Below are positions 20,909 to 38,805 of a DNA stretch of 64,000 nucleotides, one piece after another. The translations under genes were made by a program, and so were the position numbers. The notes under the pieces were generated by a model, which ran no database searches, was not told the DNA's origin, and saw nothing but the letters and a program-made list of their open reading frames with translations. The stretch is from Acephala macrosclerotiorum. Taxonomy: Eukaryota; Ascomycota; Leotiomycetes; Helotiales; Mollisiaceae. The DNA lies in contig MU119274.1 of NCBI GenBank assembly GCA_014904845.1, positions 1 through 64,000 on the forward strand, read 5' to 3'. Each line of letters opens with the position of its first letter. The stretch's first letter is position 1.

Positions 20909-23900
20909 CCATTTAATTGCCTAGTTTTTCAACTAATAGCCATTCAATTAATAGATTCTCGAATGATATAATTAATTAGTTTTATAATTAGATTTTTGGG
21001 ATTTTAAAGTTATAATTTTAGTGTTTTATTATAGTGTTTTAATAAAGAGTTAAAGCGGAAAAACTTAATAAAAAGTCTTTAATTAATTATAATTAAACGA
21101 ATTAAAGTACTATAAACTATTTTTTATTTCTTTAATGAATTTAAATTTTTAAATATTAATATTATTATTATTATTTTATTCAAAATACGACGATTTTATT
21201 TATTATTATATTAGAATTATTTTTAGTACTTTTTATTTTCGAATTTACGTTATTTCAAGTAAATTCTACGGTTTTTATAGCTAATATTTTTAATCGAATA
21301 AAAACTAATACTTTCAACTCGAATACTATTATTGAACGCGATAAGTATTCTCGATTTATTTTTATATATAACGATTATTACAATTTTTATAATTCTCCTT
21401 ATAAAAATTTACTTAAAAAATACTCGCTATATACAATTAAATAATCGTTATTCGATGATCGATTTACTATTTTATTGCGCTTTAAAAAATAATATATTTT
21501 TATTAAAATATAATCATTAAAATACGCAATTAATAATTATACGAAAACGACAAAATGAAATACTATTTTAATATAAATATATAAACATTATAAATAATTA
21601 TTTTATTTTCGATTTATATTTAAATACTAATTTATAAATTACTATAATTCGAACTTTTTTTAGTATAAAAACTTTTATTTCGATTCGAATACGCTCGCGA
21701 ATATTATTAATTATTTTTTTAAAATATATTATTTCGATGAAAATAATAATATTTAACGATTATAAGCGAACGAGATAAAAGTATAATTATTAAAATATAT
21801 TAATAGAAATTACCATATAATTATTTTATTTTACTAATAAAAGTTTATAAATACTTTTATTAAATAAATAGTTTTTAATAATATTAAATACAAAAAAATA
21901 ATTTTTAAACGTTTTTTTCGATTGTTTAAAATTACTAATAAAAACGTTATTATTACGATATTTACGTTTTACGTTACGATCGAAAATTGGATTTATAAAT
22001 ATTTTATTTATTTCGAACTTTATATTATCGAAAAAATTTAACGCTTTAAATCGAAAATATTTATATTTTTCGACGATTAAAAATCGAAACGAGAAAAAAT
22101 ATTTTTTTTTAATATTATAATACATTTTATTAATAAATTTAATATTATTATAATACGATTAATCGATTTATTAAAATTATTGAAATATAAAAAAACAAAT
22201 ATCGATATATTTAATTAATTTTTTTATATTTTAACGATATATCGATATATTAAATTATAATAAATATATTATTAAATTTAAAATAATATTTTTTTAATAT
22301 TTTTAAATATAAAATAATATTTAATATATATTTTAATATTATATAATATAATATATTATTTTATACTTTTTTTTTAAACGATTTAAAATTATTAACGAAA
22401 ATTTAAATTATTTTATTTTTAATAATATAGTAAATAATAATATTATATTTATTAAATTTATAAAAAAAAAAAATTAATTTTAAAAAACGCTGTTTTTATT
22501 ATTTCGATTATATTTTTAATTTTATCGTCGAATTTTACTTTTTTAATTAAAACGAGAAATTATATAAAAAGTAAATAAACGTAATAAAACTATAAAAACG
22601 AAGAAAATTATAATAATAACGTGAAAAACTAAAAAAGTTTTATAATTTTTAAAAAATGTAACGATTTTTTTATCGCGTTATAAACTACTAGAGTTTTAGC
22701 GACGTTTCGCGCTTTTTAATATATTAAAAAAACAAATAAAAATTTAATTTTATAATTATTTTTATTAAAAAAATTTAATTTAAAATTATTTTAAAAAATT
22801 GAAAATTAAAAAAAATTAAAAAATTAAAAAACTCGCTTAAACCTCGCTTAAACCTCGCTTATTTTTAATTAATTTTTATAATATATCAAATTTTATTATT
22901 TAATTATATTAAAATTATATATAAAATTAAATAAAAATTTAATAAAAAATTATTTCAAATTTAATAAAAATTAAATATTATATAAAAAAAAATTATTATA
23001 TAATAATTAATATATTAAATTTTAAAAATAATATTATATTTTATTTTTATAAATTAAATAATTATAATATAAAAAAAAATTTGAATTTTTTTTTAAATTC
23101 TTTTAATATTTATATAATTAATAAATATATTAATTATAATAAAATAAAAAATAAAATAAAAATTATAAATTTTTTAAAAATAATATTTAATTTTAATAAT
23201 AAATTTAATATAAATTTTTTTTTTAAATTATTATATTTATTATTTTTTAAAAAATAAAAAATAAAAATATAATTAAAAATATATTAATATTTAAAAGAAA
23301 TTAATAATATATTATTTTATTTATTAAATAAATATTTTTATATAATTTATTATAAAAATTTTAAATAAATTTATTAAACGTATATTAAAATATTTATTAT
23401 TAATAATTTATAAATATAATATTAAATTTAATTAAAATTAACGTTATTTATATTAAATTTAAAATTTATAATTAATTAATAATTTATTTATTTATTTCGT
23501 TTTTAATTTATTATTAATAATAAATATTAATTAATTATAAAATAATTTTAAATTTATATTAAAAACGAATTTTTAAACTTTGTATTTTTATTTATTATTT
23601 AATTAAAAACGTATAAAAATTAATAATAATATTTATTTAAATTCGAAATAAATTTTTTAATTTTTTTATTATTTATTATATAATTATTTTTTAATATAAT
23701 AAATTTATTTAAAATTAAATTTTTTTTTATAATAAAAATAAATAAAAAAAAATTTTGTTTTTATAAATAAAACTTTTTTTTAATAAAATAATATTAAATA
23801 AATATATTTTTTATTATTTTAAAATATAAAAAAAATATATATATTTTAATTATAATTTATAAATAAATATTAAAAAAAATTATTAATTAATTAAAAAATA

Positions 23901-26900
23901 ATAAAAAATGATAATTTTATATTTTATAAATTTATAAATATTTTTAAAAATATATATATTAAATTACGTTTTATTATTAATATTATAATACGTTTATAAA
24001 AAATATAATAATATTATATAAAATTTAATTATAATTAAAAAAATAAAAACTAATATAATAAATATAAAAGTTTTTTTTTTTATAATAAATATTATAAAAA
24101 ACGAAAATATTAAAAAAAAATTTATATTTATAATAAATAAAAATATTAATTAATAAAATATATAATAAATTTATAATAATAAATTAAAAATTAAAAATTA
24201 AAATTAAATTAATTATTTATAAATTTTAAATTAAAAAATTTAAAAAAATTAATAATATATAAATAATAATTATTTTAAATAATTAATTTATTTATTATAT
24301 AATTATAAAAAAAAAATTATTATTTTAATATTATAATTAAAATTATTTAAATTAAATTAATATTTATTTTTTATTTTTAAAAAATTATATTAAATAATAA
24401 AATCGTTCGAAATTTAATTTAATAAAAATATTATTTTATAAATATATATTTTTTATTTAAATTTTAAATTTTAATAATTTTAAAACGTTTTAATTTAAAA
24501 AAATAAAATTATTTTAATTATTTATAAATAAAACTATATATGAATATTATTATATTAATTAAATAATTATTAAAAAAGTTTTAATAAATTAATTATAATA
24601 TAAATATTAAATATATAATTAATTATTTAAAAATTTAAATTTATTTTATAAAATAATTAAAAATTTAATTATTTAATTATTATTAATATTTTATATTTAA
24701 ATAATAAATTAATTTTACAAATAATAATTTAATTTATAAAAAATATATTTATAAAAATAATATAAAATATTTTTTATATATATTAAATTAATACGTATTA
24801 AAAACCGTTTAATTATATTATTTATAATATTAAAAAAATAAAAATATATATATAATTATTTAAAACGAATTAATTATTAAATTAATTAATAAAAAAATAA
24901 TATTATTTTTATTTTATTAATTTTTAAAATTTATTTTAAAAAAATTATTAAAAAAATTAAAATAATTCGTATTATTATTAAAAACAATTTAAATATAAAA
25001 TTTATTAATTATATTTAATATAAAAATTTAATATAAAAATAAAAATAATTATATAAATTATTAATAATTAATAAAAAAATAAATATAATTAATAAATTTT
25101 CGTTTTATAATAATTAAATTTTATTATATAAAAAAGAAAAAATTTTATTTTAATTTTTTTTATTTAATAAATTAAATAATAAATTAATTAAATATTAAAA
25201 ATAAAAATAATTAAAGAAATCGCGTAATCGTAAATATTTTATTAAAATTATTAATAATAAAAAATTTAATAACGTTTTTACGATTATAATTTAAAAAAAT
25301 ATATATAATATTTATATTTTTTATAATAAATATAAAAAAGATTAAAATTAATTTTAAAATTATATTAAAAAAATATTATTATAATTTTTAAATATTTATT
25401 TAAAAAATTTTAAAAATAAAAAACGAAAAATTTAATTATAAAAAAAAAAGAATTTTATAAAATTTTATTATATTAAATATATTAAAATTTTTTTTTTATT
25501 TAAAATTAATTAATAAAATTAAAAATAAAATTATTAATAATTTTTATAAAAAATTAAAATTTATAATTTAAATTTATAATAATAAAAATAAATAAATAAT
25601 AATATTAAAAATTAATTAATAATTTATTTTAATTTAATTTTTAAATAAAAAAATTAAAATATAATTTTAAAATATTATTTAAATTTATATTTAATTTATA
25701 ATAATTTTTTAATATTTTATATTAATAAAATTATATAAAAAAAATATTATTTATATTCGTTTAATATTATTATAATTATTTTAAAATTATTATATAATAT
25801 TATTAAAAAATTATATATTATATTAATATATAATTTTTATTTATTAAAATTTAATAAAAAAATAAACACGTAATTAAAAACGTATTAATATATAAAATTT
25901 ATAATATAATAAAAAAAATTAATATAATTATATAATAATTCGAATTTTTTATTATTTTTATAATTATTTATTATATAAATATTTAATTAAATTAAAAATT
26001 ATTAAAAAAACGTTTTATAATTAATATTAAAATTTTATATTAATTATATAAATATTAAAATTTATAAAAAATTTAATAAAAATTTAAAAAAATATATAAA
26101 TATTAATTATATTATAATACGAATAAAAAAATAAATTAAAAATAAAAAAAATATAAATAAAAAAATATTTTTTATATTATATTTTAAATGTTATAATTAT
26201 TTAATTTATAAAATTAAAAAAATTAAAATTTTTCAAAATAATATTATTTTTAAATTTTTATTATATAATTTTTATGTATTAATAAATTATAATAAAAACA
26301 AATTTAATTTAATTAAATTAAATTAATAATATAAATATAATATTATTTTAATAATTATATATAATATTAAATTTATTTAAAATTAAAATTTTTAATTTTT
26401 ATATATTTATTAAATTTAAAATTTATAATTAAATAATTATACAAAAAATAAATTAATTTAAATTTATATTTATTACGTTTTATATAATAAATTTTTATTA
26501 AATTTTTATATATTAATTTAAAAATAATTTTTTATATATTTTATAAAAATTTTATTATAAATAATAAATATTTTTTTTATTAATATTATAAAAATTTATT
26601 TTAAATAATAAATTTTTAAATTATATTAATTTTATATAAATAATTAATAATTTATTTTTAAATTAAAATTTAAAAAACGATTTTATAATTATTAAATATT
26701 ATATAATTTTAAATTAAAATTAAAAACATTATAAATTAATTTAATATTAATATTTTTTTATTATATTAAAAATTTATTATTATTAATTTAAATAAAGAAA
26801 ATAAAATAAAAAATTAAAAAATATATAATTAAATTTTCAAAATAATATTATTTTTAAAAAATTTAAATTTAAATAATAATTTATAAAATAAATATAATAT

Positions 26901-29424
26901 TCTAATTATAATTATAATTATTTATTATTAAATTATAATATTAATATAATAATAATTATTATATATTTTAATTAAAAAAAATTAATATAAAATTTAAAAA
27001 TATATTTATATTTTAAATTTCAAATTTAAATTTTTAAATAATTAATAATTTTTATATTTAATATATAAAAATTATAATTATTAAATATATTATATTAATA
27101 TATTTAAATATTTCAATATTTAATTTTATTAATTAAATATAAAATAATAAAATTTAAATCAAAAAAAACTTTTATATATAATATTAAAAATTTAAAAAAA
27201 AAATTTATTAAAATTTTAATTACGTTTTTTTAATTTATATTTATTACGTATAATAAAAAAATTTATTATAAAAATTAAAACGATAATAAATATTATATAT
27301 TACGATTTTTTTTTAAAAAATAATAAATTTTTACGTTATTTAAAACGTATTTATATTATAATTAATTTAAATTTTTATTTTTATTTTTATTTTATATATA
27401 AATTTATAAATTAATATTTAAAATATTTTTTTTTTTTTAAAATATTTTTTTATTATTTAATAATAAATATAAAAAATAAATTAATTATAAATATAAAATA
27501 AATAAAAATTATAATAATAAATATAATTAAAAATAATTATTTTTAAAAAAAAATATTATATTTATAAAATATTTTTTAAATAAAAAATAAAAAATATATA
27601 AAAAAATTTAATTATAAAAAATAAAAATAAAATAATTTATAACGTTAAAAAAAATTTATATTTATAAAATTTAAATAATAAATAAAAATCGTAATAATAA
27701 AAATAAAATAAATTTATAATAATAAATAAATTTTATTATATATAAATTAAATAATATATTAATAATATTTTAATAATTATAAATTTATTTATTAATTTTA
27801 ATATTTAAATTTTTAAAAAATATAAAAAATAATTTTTTTTTAAATTAATTATAATTAAATTATATTTTTAAAAATAATAAATTATTTAAAAAAACGAAAA
27901 ACGAAAAATAATAAAAATATTATAAAAATATAAAAATTAAAATAATAATAATAATAATAATTAATATTATATAAATAAAAAAAATATTATTAATATAATT
28001 TATATAATAAATAAAAAAACAAATATAAAATTTATAAATAAATTATAAAAGAAAATATTAATAAAAAAGATTTTTAAATTTATATAATATAATTTAATTA
28101 TATATAAAAAAAATTTAATTTTTAAATTTAAATTAATTTATAAAATTAAAAATAAAATAATAAATAAAATATATAAAAAAATAAAATTTATAATTTAAAA
28201 TTTTAATAATAAATTAAAAAAAGAATTTTTATATAAATTTTTATTATTTAATAAATAAATTAATAAATTATAATTTTATAATATTATTATAAAACGTTAT
28301 ATAAATATATATATAATTATAAATTTTAATTTAATAAATAATTTTTATTATTTTATTTTAAAAAAACGATTATAATTATAAATTTTTTATATAAATTTAT
28401 ATAAATAAATATATATTATAAATAAAAAAATATTTAATAATAAAATTATAATTTAAATAAAAAAATCGAATTTATTAATTTAAATATTATAAATTATTTT
28501 AATTAATATTGAAAATAATAAATTTATAAAATATATATTATATTTATTTATTATATAATATTAAATTTTAATTAATATAAATATAATAATTTTAAATAAA
28601 AAATTAAAATAATAATAAAATAATTTATTATAAAATATTAATTATATTTTAATTAATATAAAAATAATTAAAATATTTATATTTATAAATAATTTATATT
28701 TTAATAATATTAATTTAAAATCGTAAATTAAATATATAATTATAATAATTAATAAAATTTATATAAAAAAACGTTTTATAATTAATATTATAATTTTAAA
28801 ATAATTATATAAACGTAAAAAATCATAAAAAAATATAATAAATTTAATTTAAATAAAATATTATAAACGTTTATTAATATAAATAATTTTATAATAAAAA
28901 TAAAAAAATAAAAATAAAAATAAAAATAAATTTTAAATTAAATAAATTAATTTATTTTAAATTAAATTTTTAAAAATATAAAAATATAATTAATTATTAT
29001 TAATTAATTATATAAATTATTTATTAAATTTATAATAAATTAAAAAATTATTAATATTAAAATATATATACGTATTTATTACGTATTTTAATTAAAAAAA
29101 AATTAATATAAAATTTAAAAATATATTTATATTTTTAATTTTTAATTTAATTTTTTAAATAATTAATAATTTTTATATTTAATATATAAAAATTATAATT
29201 ATTAAACGTAATATATTAATATATTTAAATATTTTTTTAATATATTTTATAAAAAAAATTTAAAATTCATTTTAATAATTAATTAAAAAAAAATATATAT
29301 ATTATAATTTATAAATTTTTTTAATTAATTATAAAATAATATTAATTTTTTAAAATATAAATTAATTATTTAATTATATATTTTAATATTATTTAAAATT
29401 AAAAAATTTCGTGAAATCAAAAAT

Positions 29425-29629: not shown

Positions 29630-31497
29630 CAGCACGAGTTTATTTGAGTACGCTATATATTTCAGAACGGCTGCTTTTTGCCTTACGCATTAGGCACCAA
29701 TTTCAATTGTATGCCATTTTTATACTACGCACCATATGAACACTCTGCACAGCGCAGAGCAGACGTCTCTAGATCAAACTTTCGACGTAGAATCGAATGG
29801 TGCTAATTATAATATTGCGACGTTGCTAGTTATCGAGATATAAGAGATTCGAGGATTGAATAGAGTTTTGGTGTTCTTGCCGGAACGGGAAAATTATTAG
29901 CCTAGCTCAATGCTTAGCTTAATGCCTAGCTCAATGCCTAAGGCTGCTAATTACCGGGCCATGTGATTACAAATTTGCTATTACGCTGCGACTTGAATTG
30001 CTTGATTTCTACCGGTCGCAATAGAAATCTGTTTTATAGAAAGATGAATCTCAATTAAATCTACGATTTGCCGTTCTCGCATTTAAATTATCTTTTAAAT
30101 TAGTGATTTTAAATAGATTTCCGTAGAATTGTAATATTGAAGTTCTTATGGAGCCGGCAGAATCACGCTACGACCAATCACAAGCGCGGTACCAGCGCCA
30201 AAACAGCCAAATTAGGAAAAGTCCGCACTTAAGCGAGTCATTCTCATCCACTCGGGGCTTCAAAGCGGTAAAAATATCACCATATGAACATTAGATATAT
30301 AACGTCGAGATTATTATTAATAAAACTTAAAAATTTGTTTTTAATAGTAGTATACGTTAAAACGCGTTTTACGTTATAATTAATTATATTCTCGAATTAA
30401 AAAAAGTTTTATAAGAGTATACTTTAAAATTACGAGTTTCTAAAAATAATTTCGATCGCGAAATTAGTAAATAAAATTATTTTAACGAAAATAAATAAAT
30501 TATTTTAAAATTAATTAAAAATCAATTAAAGTTTTTTTTTTTTATAATTAAAAGCTTTAAAAATAATATCGATATACAAAATAATACTTATAAAACTTTT
30601 TATAGTTTTTTATAGAAATTAATATTTAGTTTTAATTTTTTTTTTTAATTATTTTGAAAATCTCGAAATACGTATTAAAATTAGCGAATTTAAAAATTAT
30701 TTCAATATTTAAAATCCGATTATTTTTATTTAAAATACTATAAAAAATTAGTATTTTAAAATAAATATTTCGATCGCGTAAATAGTAATAATTATTTTAT
30801 ACTTTTATATAAAGTAAAAATATTTTGAAAATAATTAAAAAAAAGTTTTAAAACTCTCGAAAATAATCGCTTTTTTTCGAATAAAACTAAAAAAAACTAT
30901 AAATCGATAAATATAAAAAAGCGTTTACAAAACGAATAAACAATTTATTACTAGTGCTAAAAAAACTACTTTTAAAATTAGACTTTTTCGAGAATTTTTT
31001 AAATCGCGTTATACTAACGACAAAAAACGAAAATAAACTTATTACGCTAATAACTTAGTATAACTAATTATAATACTATTTAAACGAGCTTTTTAATACG
31101 AAAAAAAAAGTTTTTAAATACTAAAAATCTAAAAAAACTAAATAATTTCAATTTGCGTAAATAGTATATAATTTTTTTATTATTCCAACTATAAATTCTA
31201 AATATAAACGCGTTTTTTTTTATTACAAAACAAACTACATAAAAAAGTATTAATTTAATAAGAGAATTATTATAGTATTAAAAGTATTTAAATAATTAAT
31301 AAAGAAAAAAAGTAATTCAAATAAAACGAGCGTTTAAAGCAGTTTTATTAGACTTTAATAAAAAATAGTAATATATTTTCATTTTTACTCGAACTAATTA
31401 GTAATTAATCAACAAATCATTTAAACTATTTAGCGGTCTCTCTTATTATCAACCATTCAATTGTTTATTTTGCTCGAATGATTAAAGGCTGACTGGT

Positions 31498-32683: not shown

Positions 32684-35167
32684 ATGCGTATTTTCCGCGA
32701 GGAAATGGAAACGGACAACTTGTATGCGAGGGCTCCCCTTGACCTCGCAGTTCAACACATAAGGCTGGTCGAGATCCAGCCTGGCGACGAATCCGAAACT
32801 ATTCAATGCAAATTTCATCGGTTCCCACTTTCAGAATGCCCGGAATACATTGCGCTTTCATACACGTGGGGACCACCGAAGGTTTACAAGCAAATCCTCG
32901 TGGACGATGCGCCATTTCCTCTCCGGAGGAACCTTTGGTGGTTCCTGTACTACACGAGGCTGCAGAACCAGAACCAAAACCAACTATTCTGGATCGACGC
33001 AATGTGTATTAATCAATTGAATAACCAGGAGCGGAATCACCAGGTTCGGTTGATGGGACAGATTTATAGCATGGCTAAGTCCGTGGCCGTCTGGCTCGGG
33101 GAAGCACAAGATGACAGTGATCTTGCCATGGACTTCGTGGAAACGAAAGGCCTAGCCCCCCTCAAAGCCAAGTCAGGCCGTTTTCAACCAATTTGGAACT
33201 GGTCACAGGGCAAGGCACTGCTACAATTATGCGAAAGGAGCTACTGGAGCCGGGTCTGGGTGGTCCAAGAGATTATGCATGCCCAAGACTTGACAGTGTT
33301 TTCTAGCAGCAAGAGTTTCCATTGGCAAAACCTCAAGCAGATCTTCCAGAAGCTGAGAGAAATTGAGAGCAATGGTCACATCGTTCACCATCCGAATGCA
33401 GCAGCGGTTTTAGCCAGTCCTGCCAGCGTTCTCATTGAAGCAAAGTCTGCTTGGGCTGGGAAACATGTTCCCTTGATATCACTTCTTTCAACTTATCGAA
33501 ATCTCCAAAGTTCGGACATTCGCGACAAAGTGATTGGCTTGCTGAGTCTCGCATCAGACAGCAAATTAGTGGTAGTGGACTACTCCTTATCACTTGATAG
33601 CTTCTTCTGGAGCGTGGTGACAGGAATATGGGAAATGGATTGCTCTGGTAAGGGCGTCGAAATGATGAAGGTTGCAGAGATCTTGAAGGAGACTTTAAAA
33701 TTACACGTGTCCAACGTGGAACTCGCAAGTAAGATTTATAAGGTCACAGGGGTTCCGCACGACGAGCTGAATACGCCATGGTCCCCGAGAAAGAGGATAG
33801 AGGCGCAGCAGAAGCTGAGTCAGGAATTTGATTCACTGTTTGAGAATCCAACTTCTAGTCGCGTCGCCTCAAACGTCGACTGCCAAAGAGTGGCGCAGAG
33901 CGATCTCGCGGTTCAGGAATGGTTCGCTGAGGAAGTCCAGCCTGCATTGAAGGTAGATCCAAGACACGGAGCGAGATGTGATCAATGCTAACGCGGCAAT
34001 AGGTTCGCTTGGTAGGAAAGAAAAGAGACAGCCTGGAGATCAAGGAGGAGTATTCAAAGAGCGACTCAAGATACTACGCACAAACCGCTGTGAGTATAAC
34101 CACCTGTGCTCGTTCATATCAAGTCATGGCCTCTGATGCTTTGCAAGGCTCTACCCCTGAAATATTCACATTATCGGCCAATAAAAAGTGACACAAGCAA
34201 TGGATGGCGCGGTAAGTGCAATAGGTCCCTCCTGAAATCAACAAATGCTCCTTCAATACGCCCTATTTGCTGGCAAAATCTACAGCAATCAGGAGCTAAT
34301 GCCGTTTCAGCCGTTGGCTTTGCATACTTTGAAGCCCTGTTGAACTTTCGGAAAACGAGTCCTTTAGAAGAGGAAATCCGGCGCATCACCTCTATGAATG
34401 ATCTACTAAGAAATTTTGGAGGCTTCGCAACCTGGATGTTTGGGGATATGGTGGAAGTGACGACGAACCTACTAAAGGCACTTGCAGAAAAGTTGCAATC
34501 GTCATTCAGAGATGCGAAGCACTTGCTACGCCAGCGATTCAATGAACCCCGCATCTCAAAGTCGATCACTCAACACCTCAGATTACTCGCAAGCTCATTC
34601 ATGAGGGTTAACCCAGATTTATATCAAGTTGCGTTACCAGATGGACTGGGGATCGATCGATACGCTAAAGATTTTATTGAATCACCAAGTCAGGAAATCG
34701 ATCATCTGGGTATGGCCCTTCTCGTGGAAGTTTTGCTCAAGCCAATTCAATTTGACTTGCAGATCAAATACGTAAATGGGGGGAAAGACCGCGCACTGGC
34801 ATCCAAAGGCCCTCCCAAGACGTTCCAAGAAGACTCCTTTAGTGGTTGCTCCAAGAATGTTGGTCTTCAAACAATTTATCTGTTATATCGACCAGGGCAT
34901 TACGACATTCTCTACAAAGCCCCAGTCAAATCTTCACCTGTCAACTCCTCGCCCGTACAGTATAAAAGAGATCCCAACAAACGAGTACGCCATAGGGGCG
35001 AGAAAGCCGTCGCACCGCAACAAGTATCACACCACCTTGACTCCCCACCAACTATTGAAAGGCCCATACTTCAATTCAGCCAACATAATATCGCGCACTA
35101 CAAACACCCCGATTTCCAGCCCGAGCAATGGACCCCTGAGCCTCAAACCGCGCTGACTTGGAGGTAA
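32684..35167 (+). CDS. HET domain fused to catalytically altered otubain-like domain
   Basis: Four exons (32684-33952, 34003-34089, 34148-34211, 34311-35167) give 758 residues. All junctions are GT-AG and in phase; intron 1 (50 nt) has a textbook branch site GCTAAC. Residues about 55-200 form an intact HET domain: YIALSYTWG (55-63), WIDAMCINQ (103-111), QVRLMGQIYSMAKSVAVWLG and RVWVVQE (190-196). From about residue 405 (LAVQEWFAEEVQPALK) the protein follows the otubain family (peptidase C65): LVGKKRDSLEIKEEYSKSD, KYSHYRPIK, GWRAVGFAYFEALL, EIDHLGMALLVEVL and YRPGHYDILY. The catalytic loop D-G-N-C reads D467-T-S-N470, so Cys is Asn, while the His (H670) is kept. HET domains trigger allorecognition death; otubains cleave ubiquitin. 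I infer a ubiquitin-binding sensor or decoy. Alternatives: two neighbouring genes, or decay. Confidence 0.78.
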
Positions 35168-35429: not shown

Positions 35430-36981
35430 TCAAGCCATCCCCTCCAACGCCTTACTAGAAGCATTCAACACATTATGACTAAAGGCATGTGCCGTCCTCT
35501 CCGCAAACGTGCTCGGAACCTTCTGTTCTGGCTCAGCGAATTGCTTGACCTATCCAACGATTAGCCTCCTGTCTATCACCCCTCAACTATCACTCCTCAT
35601 CTCCTATCCTTCATCCCCACCGTCACTCGAATAGAAAATAAAAGAAGCAAAATGGGAAACCTACCTCATCTTCAATCTCCCCTTCTCCTTCCCAACACGG
35701 ACTTTAGATAGGGTTTGGATGAGCGAAGCACGCTTTATACGCACTTTCTCAAAAGCAGCGAGACGAGAAGTGAATTCGTCGGGTGTGGAGGTTGAGGAGA
35801 TGCCAGTCAACAAATACCCCAAAGCCCCTGCATCCTCAATAGCCTAATTCGCGCCCTGACCACCGAACGGCAACATAGGATGAGCGGCATCGCCAATCAA
35901 CACCATTTTCCCCTTGACCCAGGTCTTGAGAGGGTCGTGGATGTTGAGAGGCCAGCAGGAGACGTTGTCTGCGATGGAGATTACTTTCTTGATGTCGGGA
36001 TGGTAGGTTGAGAAATCTTCTAGTATTGCGGATTTGAAATCTGGTGTGGAGTTAGCGGAAATATTTAGGTGAGGAAGAGGGGAGGAATGGGGAGGGAAGG
36101 GGGTTGGGTACCTTGAGCTCCGTCTTCTGCGACTAGGATGGGACGAGAGGGGTGGACGCCGACGAACTTTTGGACGTGTCCGCTATTTCCACCAATGTCT
36201 GAAAGTCTTTGAGGAGAGTGAACACTTACTCTTGACATTCATACCACATCATATGGCGCTCAGGACAAGGATCTTTAGGGTCAGCGAGCGTGCTGGCTCC
36301 GGGAGACTTCCGCTTCATCAACGCGTCGAGCTCGGGGTTTGAAGTTAATCTCTCGGTCGGAACCAAGAATCCGAATGCGCTCAATCCGGTGGACTTTGGC
36401 TTGACAGCATCACGACCGATGACCATTAGCTTGATCACAGAATGAATCCCATCGGCTCCAACGATCAGATCAGCGAAATTCTTGCTCCCATCCTCAAGCT
36501 GGATCCATCCCTCCTCGGCACTCCCATCCACCACTTTGCTTGAAAGCTTAAGTTCGACGGGCCTGAGGTCTCCTTCTGGTTCTGGAGCAAGTCGCAACAG
36601 CTCGTGATGCATATCAACCCTATGAACAGCAAAAGTCTCCAGCCCAAATTTCTTCGCAGACTCAGTCAAATCCATAGAGTTGAGAACGGGCAAAGGGATA
36701 TCATCAGTGATGTCCCAGATGCGGATTGAGCGCGCGCGGGCGCGTTCGAAGGCGAAGCCGAGGGTTTTGAGGACTTGGGCGCCGTTGGGGGTGAGGCCGA
36801 GGGCGGCGCCGACTTCAGCTACGAATTTGGACTTTCGAATATCTGGGAAGTGGGTTAGAAGTTGTGAGGGGATGGGAGGGGAGGGAGGACTCACACGGAC
36901 TTCGTGGCTGGCTTGGCGGAGGGAGGTGGCGGCTGTGAGGCCTGCAAGGCCGGCACCGACGACTATGATGTTGAGATCCAT
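35430..36981 (-). pseudogene. FAD-dependent monooxygenase (salicylate-hydroxylase-like), broken
   Basis: Class A flavoprotein monooxygenase. Minus-strand exons are 36981-36897, 36842-36230, 36182-36112, 36040-35665 and 35549-35430. MDLNIIVVGAGLAGLTAATS is the dinucleotide-binding Rossmann motif. LIVGADGIHS is the DG motif. VLIGDAAHPMLPFGGQGAN is the GD/FAD-ribityl motif. It is followed at once by TAG where the family has Gln (normally ...GANQAIEDA), consistent with CAG to TAG. A second problem lies near 35670-35685, where exon 4 must lose one base in a G run to join the C-terminal exon (FAEPEQKVPSTFAERTAHAF). The first intron boundary (GTGTGA donor) is my best guess. The substrate would be an aromatic compound; unknown. 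It converges with the HET-otubain gene. Readthrough or assembly error cannot be excluded. Confidence 0.8.
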
Positions 36982-38805
36982 GATGAATGGTACCTTGATT
37001 ATTTCCAAAGAAGGGGAGAAGGAGATACAGCAATAAGATTCGCGGAAACGCAGAACTTACTAATGAAAAGAGATCCTAGTCACGTGAAAGGGATATATAT
37101 AAAAAGGAGAACTCTCAAGTCTTGAAATGAAAAGTACAACCCAAATACTAAACGACGAAATCTTGCACTACGCCCGGAAACTAAACGTGGTACGATTGCT
37201 ATCTTCTAGAGAATTCAGATAAATTGACAGTCAGTTCATCTCAACTCACTGTGGTTTGATCGTGTGAAGGAAGCTAGCGGTGGATTTCTGGAAAGGTTTC
37301 TGAGTCTCGGATCGATCTGCAGCTACTTTGTGACTCGCTGGAGGCTCTGCTTGCTGCAAGATGCAAATCCCCATGGAGAATAAGGGAGCCAATGAGAAAA
37401 TGTACCGTGGTGATAGGTCTTAGATCCTTCGGCATAAGAGAAAATGTGCCGGAAAATGCTCCGTGAAGGAAATATTGAAAGATGGAACCGAAAGGCTTCA
37501 TTGTATGAATTAGTGTTGAAGAGGCTGTGTGATCACTTGCGAGTGCAATGCTCATTCGCTGTCGAGGAGATGGTTGCCCTGCCGAACCTGCTGAAGAATT
37601 GGTCGCGTGTCGTCACGAGCCGGGAGGCGCGAAAGGAACTCGATGTCACTGCACGAAAACCATCGACCCGTCGCTCTCCCTTGTAGTCCTTAGTTGGTTC
37701 ATCTCGAGATGTATCATGGGAAGAGACGCGGATTCTGTTCTGAAAATGGTTGAGGAGTGAGGAAAGTAGGTGAAGAGATGAGGTTCCTCGCCTCTGAGAC
37801 ACTGAACGCCAATCGCGCTGGGCTTGACGCTAACCCTAATTAGTATTCAACAACACTACTCATCTCAGTCCTCGAGAACTGGAAATCTTCATACTGATTT
37901 CCTTAATTATCATATTCCATGATGCGCTTCTTACAATAAAGATCTTTCATATTGCTCCGATCAGTGTGGGACGTTCAAACCTGCAAAGAACTCGACTCTC
38001 AATTTTACCAATTTGCATGTATCGATCAAACGGTGGCGCATTAGGCCAAATTTCCTCCCCTTCCTTTAGCGATGAGCACTGCGCGATTTGTATATTTCCT
38101 ACCACGCTCTCGGGATTGGTCCGACGGCTCGGGTGCAATTCTCTTTCCTTGTCTCCTTCCTGTCTTCATCGTGGCTTTTGAGGATACAAATTGCTCGGAT
38201 CATCGCTCCGTTGTTATTCGTCTGTTGTACCCTATCAAACTGCTGGTGGCTGGAGAGATCCGTAAAATTAGGCTCGTTCAGGAAGCTCAGGGATGTTGTT
38301 CTCTTATCACCTTCCCCGCATCTAGAGTTGCGTAACGATGGGACAAAGCTTCCCGGCCCTGTTTATTTCGCATACGAAAGATAAGCTCACGGGAGCAGGA
38401 CATGCCAATGTGAGACAAGAAACGGCCACCTGCTCAGATTGAAAAGGGGCTTCGCTTGGCGATCGCTTGGCTGCAACATCAAGTTGATTTTGTGGCATCT
38501 GAAGAACAACATCAGAATATATAAATTATTATACTTTGAGGATAAAATTGCATGCTGCGCAATGATGAGATCCCCACCACTTATCGCATTGTGCCTGAAC
38601 GGTTCCCTGCCTGTTCCTGGTTAAACTGGTACTTGCCTTCCTGATCCAGTCAAGCGTAGTAGCTACCCCTGTAGGTTAAACCTCAGATCGACATGCAGCT
38701 TCCCATTTCGTGCTCAAGCTCTCTGTTTCCCAGAATAAAATAAATGAAAACGCGTCCCCGCGTCTTTCTTTACCTTCCTCGACAGCCTCGCATTCATTCT
38801 CGAAG
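36982..38805. other. Intergenic region between FAD monooxygenase and sedolisin
   Basis: About 1.8 kb of normal composition separating two divergent genes. Short open frames on both strands without domains. It presumably contains both promoters; no specific site assigned. Confidence 0.4.

Follow-up and report, generated by a model that had tools for sequence, protein, structure and literature searches.

A HET-domain gene of Acephala macrosclerotiorum with an otubain-like C-terminus predicted to be catalytically dead, a putative integrated decoy

Introduction

For most fungal HET genes we know of no signal that their products sense. The gene described here, on contig C73 of Acephala macrosclerotiorum (Helotiales, Mollisiaceae), lies in a stretch of 64,000 nucleotides, called the window below, and encodes a HET domain joined to an otubain-like domain. 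According to the sections cited here, the HET domain is TIR-like and sufficient for death (PMC12881547, PMC10890737), and in three species with 132, 94, and 65 HET-domain genes only 4, 3, and 4 are linked to allorecognition (PMC10890737). The Podospora anserina het-B product BH, composed of HET, HAD, and a C-terminal lectin fold, resembles the window protein in having an N-terminal HET domain outside the NOD-like receptor (NLR) architecture and a C-terminal recognition domain that diverges faster than the HET domain, this C-terminal domain being described to set specificity (PMC10890737). Unlike in BH, the C-terminal domain here is not an FB-lectin fold but an apparently dead otubain, whose relative is a resident gene.

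Host-gene copies joined to immune-type receptors as putative decoys are found in plant NLRs with integrated domains (NLR-IDs). Integrated decoys have also been published for fungal NLRs, where the best case in the text cited is the CHK-2-derived kinase domain of Sordariales NLRs, again a host-gene copy (PMC12258605). The window protein shares the joined host-gene copy with both groups but is a bare HET protein without NACHT, NB-ARC, or repeats. We found no report of a HET-otubain or HET-OTU fusion in the open-licence full-text literature, where papers mentioning both HET domains and deubiquitination do not, judged by title and abstract start, deal with one, and no proposal of integrated decoys in HET proteins lacking an NLR core among the titles and abstract starts of the open-licence literature. 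The phrase "integrated decoy" also occurs in the text of two further papers on fungal NLRs (PMC5485727, PMC5658179).

With OTUB1 and OTUB2 (family C65, Pfam ID PF10275) the window copy has in common the predicted fold, the triad His and Asp, and the D88 position, and with canonical fungal otubains a conserved tail; unlike OTUB1 and OTUB2, it has no nucleophile Cys and is fused to a HET domain. FAM105A (OTULINL) is a pseudoenzyme with an OTU fold and no working nucleophile, which belongs to the OTULIN branch, is membrane-bound, and is not known to be fused to a death domain; the window otubain likewise has a predicted OTU fold without nucleophile and differs by the HET fusion. With somewhat more confidence than doubt, we read the protein as a HET executioner that carries an integrated, catalytically dead copy of the resident otubain as a recognition module.

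One reading frame for HET and otubain

Four exons splice in frame into a single reading frame of 758 residues (window 32684-35167, forward strand), and the HET frame thus runs on into the otubain part as an earlier interpretation, made from the DNA letters without database searches (the sequence-only reading), had proposed. To obtain the model, we took intron 1 as placed in that reading and enumerated the combinations of GT-AG introns 2 and 3 that keep the phase. Many alternative splice combinations are also open; the chosen one was picked by homology, is identical to NCBI's splicing, and contains ALPLKYSHYRPIKSDTSNGWRAVGFAYFEALL, which aligns gap-free with ALPQKYSHYRPILGDGNCGWRAAGFSYFETLI of the canonical otubain gene. 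The HET profile (PF06985) matches residues 55-196 over 146 of 146 positions (102.8 bits against a cut-off of 22.5, E value 2.7e-29), and the Peptidase_C65 profile (PF10275) matches residues 423-676 over positions 5-243 of 243 (163.2 bits against a cut-off of 24.3, E value 9.9e-48). A Pfam scan of the 758 residues at E values up to 1 gave these two domains only, with no NACHT, NB-ARC, or repeats.

The top protein match to the otubain part is the NCBI protein P0001, "cysteine proteinase [Acephala macrosclerotiorum]", with 100% identity. P0001 equals residues 328-758 exactly and hence has the same three introns, which bears out the three in-phase GT-AG introns of the sequence-only reading. The public model begins at Met328 within the HET exon and omits the HET part, which speaks against a fusion. 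Two overlapping genes would explain this, one for a HET protein with its end at 33991 and one for an otubain-like protein that begins at Met328 (33665) or elsewhere, and the HET-only frame given by intron-1 retention would fit as well. We consider this quite improbable. There is no further Met from residue 328 to the otubain, so that 328 is simply the nearest upstream ATG; Met328 is Ser in the second fusion of this genome (C89, described below), which is annotated as one fused protein; residues 300-350, in which Met328 lies, are part of a helical extension that can be aligned to C89 and to HET proteins without otubain; and the HET protein search gave no separate HET model of 417-1326 residues for the window locus, shorter models lying outside the candidates. 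Based on the nearest ATG, the HET-conserved location, and the Ser in C89, we take the start of P0001 to be an artefact, and P0001 is judged to be a truncated gene model that hides the HET domain. The sequence-only reading had named transcripts with a separate otubain start as contrary evidence; such a start exists in the public annotation but is judged an artefact of it.

Retention of intron 1 would yield a HET-only protein with its stop at 33991, and the C89 gene would likewise stop soon after the intron-1 donor. Such retention could be a splice switch.

A second fusion and the resident otubain

The genome (69.7 Mb, 778 contigs) was searched with PF10275, resulting in four matches at three places, namely the window, C165, and C89. 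C165 holds the resident canonical otubain with an intact DGNC motif. At the C89 locus (L013, minus strand) the HET frame runs into otubain, as in the window, and the two HET parts are 64% identical over window residues 8-353. The NCBI protein P0121 is C89, annotated as one 693-residue "HET-domain-containing protein" with PF06985 and PF10275, and is longer than our C89 model by one residue at the second intron. The search for HET plus Peptidase_C65 architectures suggested by the sequence-only reading thus returned a second fusion from the same species, this one annotated as a single protein.

All three intron positions are common to the window, C89, and C165 genes, and the unusual donor GTTCGT in intron 2 is common to C165 and C89. 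The same intron places, together with the annotation of C89 as one fused protein, argue that the frame and introns of the window gene are not due to chance. An assembly error is countered by the second HET-otubain gene, which lies on another contig and also lacks the Cys (Ser instead). The introns shared with the resident otubain furthermore indicate that the fusion arose from genomic otubain DNA rather than a processed copy. In the window, the C-terminal tail HNIAHYKHPDFQPEQWTPE is retained as well.

Loss of the catalytic nucleophile

We aligned the fused domains to 120 reference rows, composed of the 119 other listed otubain matches and the C165 protein. Of the 120 rows, 107 have Cys in the nucleophile column, 8 are gapped there, and 5 carry W, V, or L, the 13 non-Cys rows looking like gene models without the active-site exon; the triad His and the second-following Asp are present in 120 of 120. 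At the three triad positions the window has Asn, His, and Asp, and C89 has Ser, His, and Cys. In the alignment to OTUB1, window residues D467, N470, H670, and D672 correspond to D88, C91, H265, and D267. The OTUB1 triad consists of C91, H265, and D267, D88 having formerly been believed catalytic (PMC10803509). The sequence-only reading was right to name H670 as the catalytic His, but its catalytic Asp, D467, corresponds to the E2-binding, non-triad D88, and the triad Asp is D672 in the GHYD motif.

The same reading had described a Cys-to-Asn exchange and proposed aligning the D-G-N-C loop. The alignment places Asn against the reference Cys, and no Cys is left in the loop; however, the G and N of the motif are altered too, and the reading "C to N" hinges on how the loop is aligned, as AAT may instead descend from the Asn codon of the motif, the codon for Cys having been lost. 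C89 shows KYSHYRPVSGHHSGWR against KYSHYRPILGDGNCGWR of C165 at the active site and HYC against HYD at the triad end, and it lacks the EIDHLGM block, the conserved tail, the D88 position, and the triad Asp, keeping the triad His. The window otubain, which retains the EIDHLGM block, therefore resembles an OTUB1 altered at C91 and the two preceding residues, and C89 is damaged further.

Active C65 peptidases have a Cys nucleophile, in place of which the window protein has Asn470. The only two Cys in or near its otubain part are C400, which precedes the domain, and C653, which sits in a loop that is variable and predicted with low confidence. With these as the sole candidates, an active deubiquitinase with an alternative nucleophile is hardly credible, although the triad His and Asp are kept; we know of no OTU enzyme with Asn as nucleophile. 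To judge from the sequences, the fused otubain is catalytically dead, with the nucleophile lost in both copies, in agreement with the dead module on a HET frame that the sequence-only reading had described for the window.

A dead otubain may still bind. OTUB1 mutants at C91 retain the non-catalytic function in most cases described, whereas D88A mostly disrupts this function together with the binding of E2, being without effect for two targets, RAPTOR and c-Maf, in the text cited (PMC10803509). With its D88 equivalent and the triad His and Asp, the window copy may still be holding ubiquitin or E2~ubiquitin. The main rival explanation builds on this, in that the dead otubain would bind the normal cell's own ubiquitin or E2~ubiquitin and so control how stable the HET part is, where it resides, or how it is kept at rest, with no foreign factor to be baited. 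This explanation fits the window copy, which keeps D467, H670, D672, and the EIDHLGM block and which has a parallel in the non-catalytic action of C91-mutated OTUB1, but not C89, which of these features has only the triad His left and should not work in this way; nor would it account for unrelated tails on two related HET proteins (see below). We regard it as unlikely.

As C89 retains only the triad His, a role shared by the two proteins would more likely be target mimicry than ubiquitin sensing, and the feature common to both copies appears to be an otubain-like domain and not an intact ubiquitin site. Of the decoy or ubiquitin-gated response put forward in the sequence-only reading, the decoy or ubiquitin-linked sensor now leads with the second fusion, the shared introns, and the related tails, while ubiquitin sensing itself is weakened by C89.

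Structure predictions

Structures were predicted in two pieces, P0001 and the HET exon. The AlphaFold model of P0001 (37 rows, including 36 relatives) has a mean predicted local distance difference test (pLDDT) score of 67, with ten-residue means of 85-98 over its residues 141-300, about 80 over 331-350, and low values elsewhere. The best Foldseek match is OTUB1 (PDB ID 2zfy, E value 1.6e-12, template modelling score 0.80 by target), the 29 best-ranked structures belong to the otubains of human, worm, and rice or bear the name deubiquitinase within that set, and FAM105A (PDB ID 6drm) is also found with an E value of 1.6e-4. The otubain fold is therefore predicted to be retained in the window protein; the sequence-only reading had suggested such a model as a check.

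The HET exon was predicted at a mean pLDDT of 87, with residues 321-350 at 83-96. Foldseek gave 0 matches for the HET model at E values up to 0.001, and VIA-align gave weak TIR matches only, the resemblance to the SARM1 TIR domain being weak. A mixed alignment of HET-only proteins, otubain-only proteins, and P0121 (A3) was discarded, as the two domains seemed to be overlaid, with the otubain rows at 11-18% identity.

Constraint and rate of change

At a conservation threshold of 95% of the reference rows, 65 otubain columns qualify, of which 52 are retained in the window and 35 in C89 (30 lost); at a threshold of 99%, 30 columns qualify, and the numbers are 27 and 16. The 109 reference rows that fill more than 90% of the 65 columns keep a median of 98% and a minimum of 88%. 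Both fused frames are open, and the indels between them are in frame. In a neutral simulation of the 255-codon otubain stretch, 0 of 2000 runs stayed free of stops at 0.5 or more substitutions per site, compared with 4% at 0.1. Between the window and C89 the synonymous divergence (dS) exceeds 1 by all methods yielding a value (HET and otubain, respectively, 2.4 and 3.9 by NG86 and 1.2 and 1.9 by LWL85), values at which it is saturated and the rates are rough. From the simulation and this dS we conclude that the frames have been maintained.

Between the two fusions, the nonsynonymous divergence (dN, NG86) amounts to 0.25 in the HET part and 0.64 in the otubain part. Counted per 50 residues of the window protein, 26-37 are identical within residues 1-350 and 5-21 within residues 351-750 (24-50 aligned in each). 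In the otubain tree the end branches of the two fused otubains are 1.39 and 4.06 long, the median being 0.17. By these sequence comparisons, change has been quicker in the otubain part of the fusions than in their HET part.

These data also bear on the idea that a chance HET-otubain fusion, a by-product of rearrangement in islands rich in transposable elements (TEs), was once duplicated, its otubain end slowly decaying without a role. Both fusion genes adjoin blocks of low guanine-cytosine (GC) content, and the C89 otubain has lost 30 of the 65 conserved columns and the tail, both of which speak for this idea. Yet the frames are open with in-frame indels despite the high divergence, and the window still keeps 27 of the 30 most conserved columns (16 in C89), so that we hold this explanation to be improbable.

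Related HET proteins with other tails

In a profile search of the genome, 150 of 620 HET candidates were scored, and at least 150 matches lie above the Pfam cut-off. The tree of 21 HET domains places the window, C89, P0122, and P0123 in one starred clade (support 99/96), within which C89 pairs with P0123 (100/99; 73.6% identity). P0123, known from read assemblies, has no otubain; its tail is a basic region, ISDLAERRRIQNRMAQRNYRQ, at residues about 377-411, which has three matches in the Acephala genome (77% with an E value of 5.7e-11, 74% with 3.5e-9, and 56% with 0.005). By eye, the exon frames of L027 and L028 end at or just after NYR with a donor-like GTAAGT or GTTAGT, and the likeness to P0123 stops there too. 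The 45-residue tail matches bZIP_1 at an E value of 0.01, below the cut-off; bZIP is absent from the PDB search and from the scan of the whole P0123 protein against Pfam, and the first exon of L028 alone has no Pfam match. We presume the bZIP name on two grounds, the motif of the basic region and, in L028, the zipper-like KKLKMRLENLERMA downstream of the donor-like GTTAGT. Resting on the match to Acephala exons, P0123 is likely a HET-bZIP fusion. Its position within the otubain-bearing HET set is compatible both with one gain and a later swap and with two separate gains.

P0128 sits in a starred clade of seven that is joined weakly (69/20) to the window/C89 clade. It contains the GATA_AreA domain (Pfam ID PF08550) at an E value of 3.7e-10, and its tail (residues about 345-447) is 54% identical over 90 residues to an Acephala gene (L030-L033; E value 2.8e-28), which itself has PF08550. 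The likeness ends at LNW, where the L031 and L032 frames end, L030 continuing for six residues. We take this tail to resemble Reg1-type regulators.

Across the 11 rows of the two clades there are thus two otubain tails, one bZIP-like tail (P0123), and one GATA_AreA tail (P0128). The tails of P0122, P0124 (an approximate query with four altered residues at its start), and P0135 had no match in the Acephala genome; the tails of P0125, P0155, P0156, and P0164 were outside this search. The P0122 tail matched itself alone in the protein database at E values up to 0.01. The ten other Acephala HET loci nearest to the window HET (L017-L026) have, by eye, no recognisable host-gene tail. P0124, P0125, and P0164 show a Cys/His-rich C-terminal region by eye (FECLFWYL.CSY and similar), and their Pfam scans gave no family besides HET above the cut-off.

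A broader and more tentative possibility is that bare HET executioners have repeatedly gained intron-bearing copies of host regulators at their C-termini, the copies having lost their function and serving as exchangeable decoys. They would then form a receptor class outside the NLRs and a fungal counterpart of the plant NLR-IDs.

Possible function and points against it

As expected for an integrated decoy, the gene copied into the fusion also stands alone in the same genome (C165), and its enzymatic role appears lost, the nucleophile being gone from both fused copies. In the integrated-decoy reading that we favour, the fusion would be transcribed as one mRNA, the HET part would act as the executioner, in line with known het genes, and recognition would fall to the dead otubain. 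What engages the pseudo-otubain would be either an altered E2~ubiquitin state or a factor of foreign origin, brought by a mycoparasite, a bacterium, a mycovirus, or an incompatible strain. The HET part would then be released or clustered, leading to cell death.

Several observations besides the start of P0001 weigh against this reading. HET is found in 0 of the best 120 of 223 otubain matches, and C65 in 1 of the best 120 of 263 HET matches, namely P0121 from the same species; other HET-otubain fusions could be hidden among unlisted matches or split models. Neither P0122 nor P0123, both closely related by their HET domains, carries an otubain. Each fused otubain is nearer to the canonical one (window 49.2% over 254 codons, C89 41.9% over 222) than to the other fusion (36.7% over 221), and the otubain tree does not join the window and C89, both of which are long, unplaced branches; the resident otubain forms a starred clade with P0010 and P0012 to which the window does not belong, a placement that the long branches make unsure. 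From these identities and this tree a single origin of the two fusions does not follow; the similar fusion borders and shared introns point to one gain, the pairwise identities do not. The quicker change of the otubain part, measured with saturated dS, may reflect relaxed constraint instead of adaptation. Finally, deletion of the N-terminal helix of OTUB1 also abolishes the non-catalytic function in the text cited (PMC10803509), and the window counterpart of this helix is predicted only at low confidence.

If the integrated-decoy reading is correct, a HET gene with an inactivated host-enzyme copy names a candidate guarded process, here ubiquitin signalling through otubain, and the integrated-decoy idea reaches beyond NLRs. 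Should related HET proteins truly swap host-gene tails, these tails would be a readable list of the targets of fungal attackers, as integrated domains are in plants.

Gene features and genomic surroundings

The coordinates of the gene and its surroundings are given in Table 1.

Table 1. Features of the HET-otubain fusion gene and adjoining low-GC blocks in the window
Feature	Position	Strand	Remarks
HET-otubain fusion gene	32684..35167	+	758 residues, four coding exons, stop TAA 35165-35167
Exon 1	32684..33952	+	residues 1-423: HET domain, helical extension, linker, otubain start
HET domain	32846..33271	+	residues 55-196, PF06985 positions 1-146
Met328 start codon of public 431-residue model P0001	33665..33667	+	within HET-conserved sequence; Ser in C89
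Linker, HET extension to otubain	33737..33895	+	residues about 352-404; alignment to C89 nearly impossible
Otubain domain	33950..34918, including introns	+	residues 423-676, PF10275 positions 5-243
Intron 1	33953..34002	+	GTAGAT..AATAG; retention gives stop at 33991, HET-only 435 residues
Exon 2	34003..34089	+	residues 424-452
Intron 2	34090..34147	+	GTGAGT..GCAAG
Exon 3	34148..34211	+	holds pseudo-active-site loop D-T-S-N-G-W-R
Asp467	34190..34192	+	equivalent of OTUB1 D88, E2-binding residue; kept
Asn470	34199..34201	+	replaces nucleophile Cys (OTUB1 C91)
Intron 3	34212..34310	+	GTAAGT..TTTCAG, acceptor end 34310 as in P0001
Exon 4	34311..35167	+	remaining otubain domain and C-terminal tail
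His670-Tyr-Asp672	34898..34906	+	equivalents of OTUB1 triad H265, D267; both kept
Tail with HNIAHYKHPDFQPEQWTPE	35072..35164	+	counterpart of canonical fungal otubain end
Larger low-GC block	21001..29400		GC about 2% over 23-29 kb
Low-GC block upstream of gene	30201..31400		200-base GC bins

The sequence-only reading had placed the gene 1.2 kb from a transposon boundary. In 200-base bins, the low-GC block ends at 31400, at a distance of 1.28 kb from the start codon. The C89 fusion gene has low-GC blocks on both sides, and none occur in the 7 kb around the canonical C165 otubain. The extreme low GC of the window blocks could be consistent with repeat-induced point mutation (RIP), and the setting of both fusions would fit rearrangement in a TE-rich, RIP-like compartment, a correlation only.

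Downstream of the fusion, the frame 36226-37056 on the reverse strand has FAD/NAD-binding Rossmann matches and is probably an exon of an FAD-dependent oxidoreductase.

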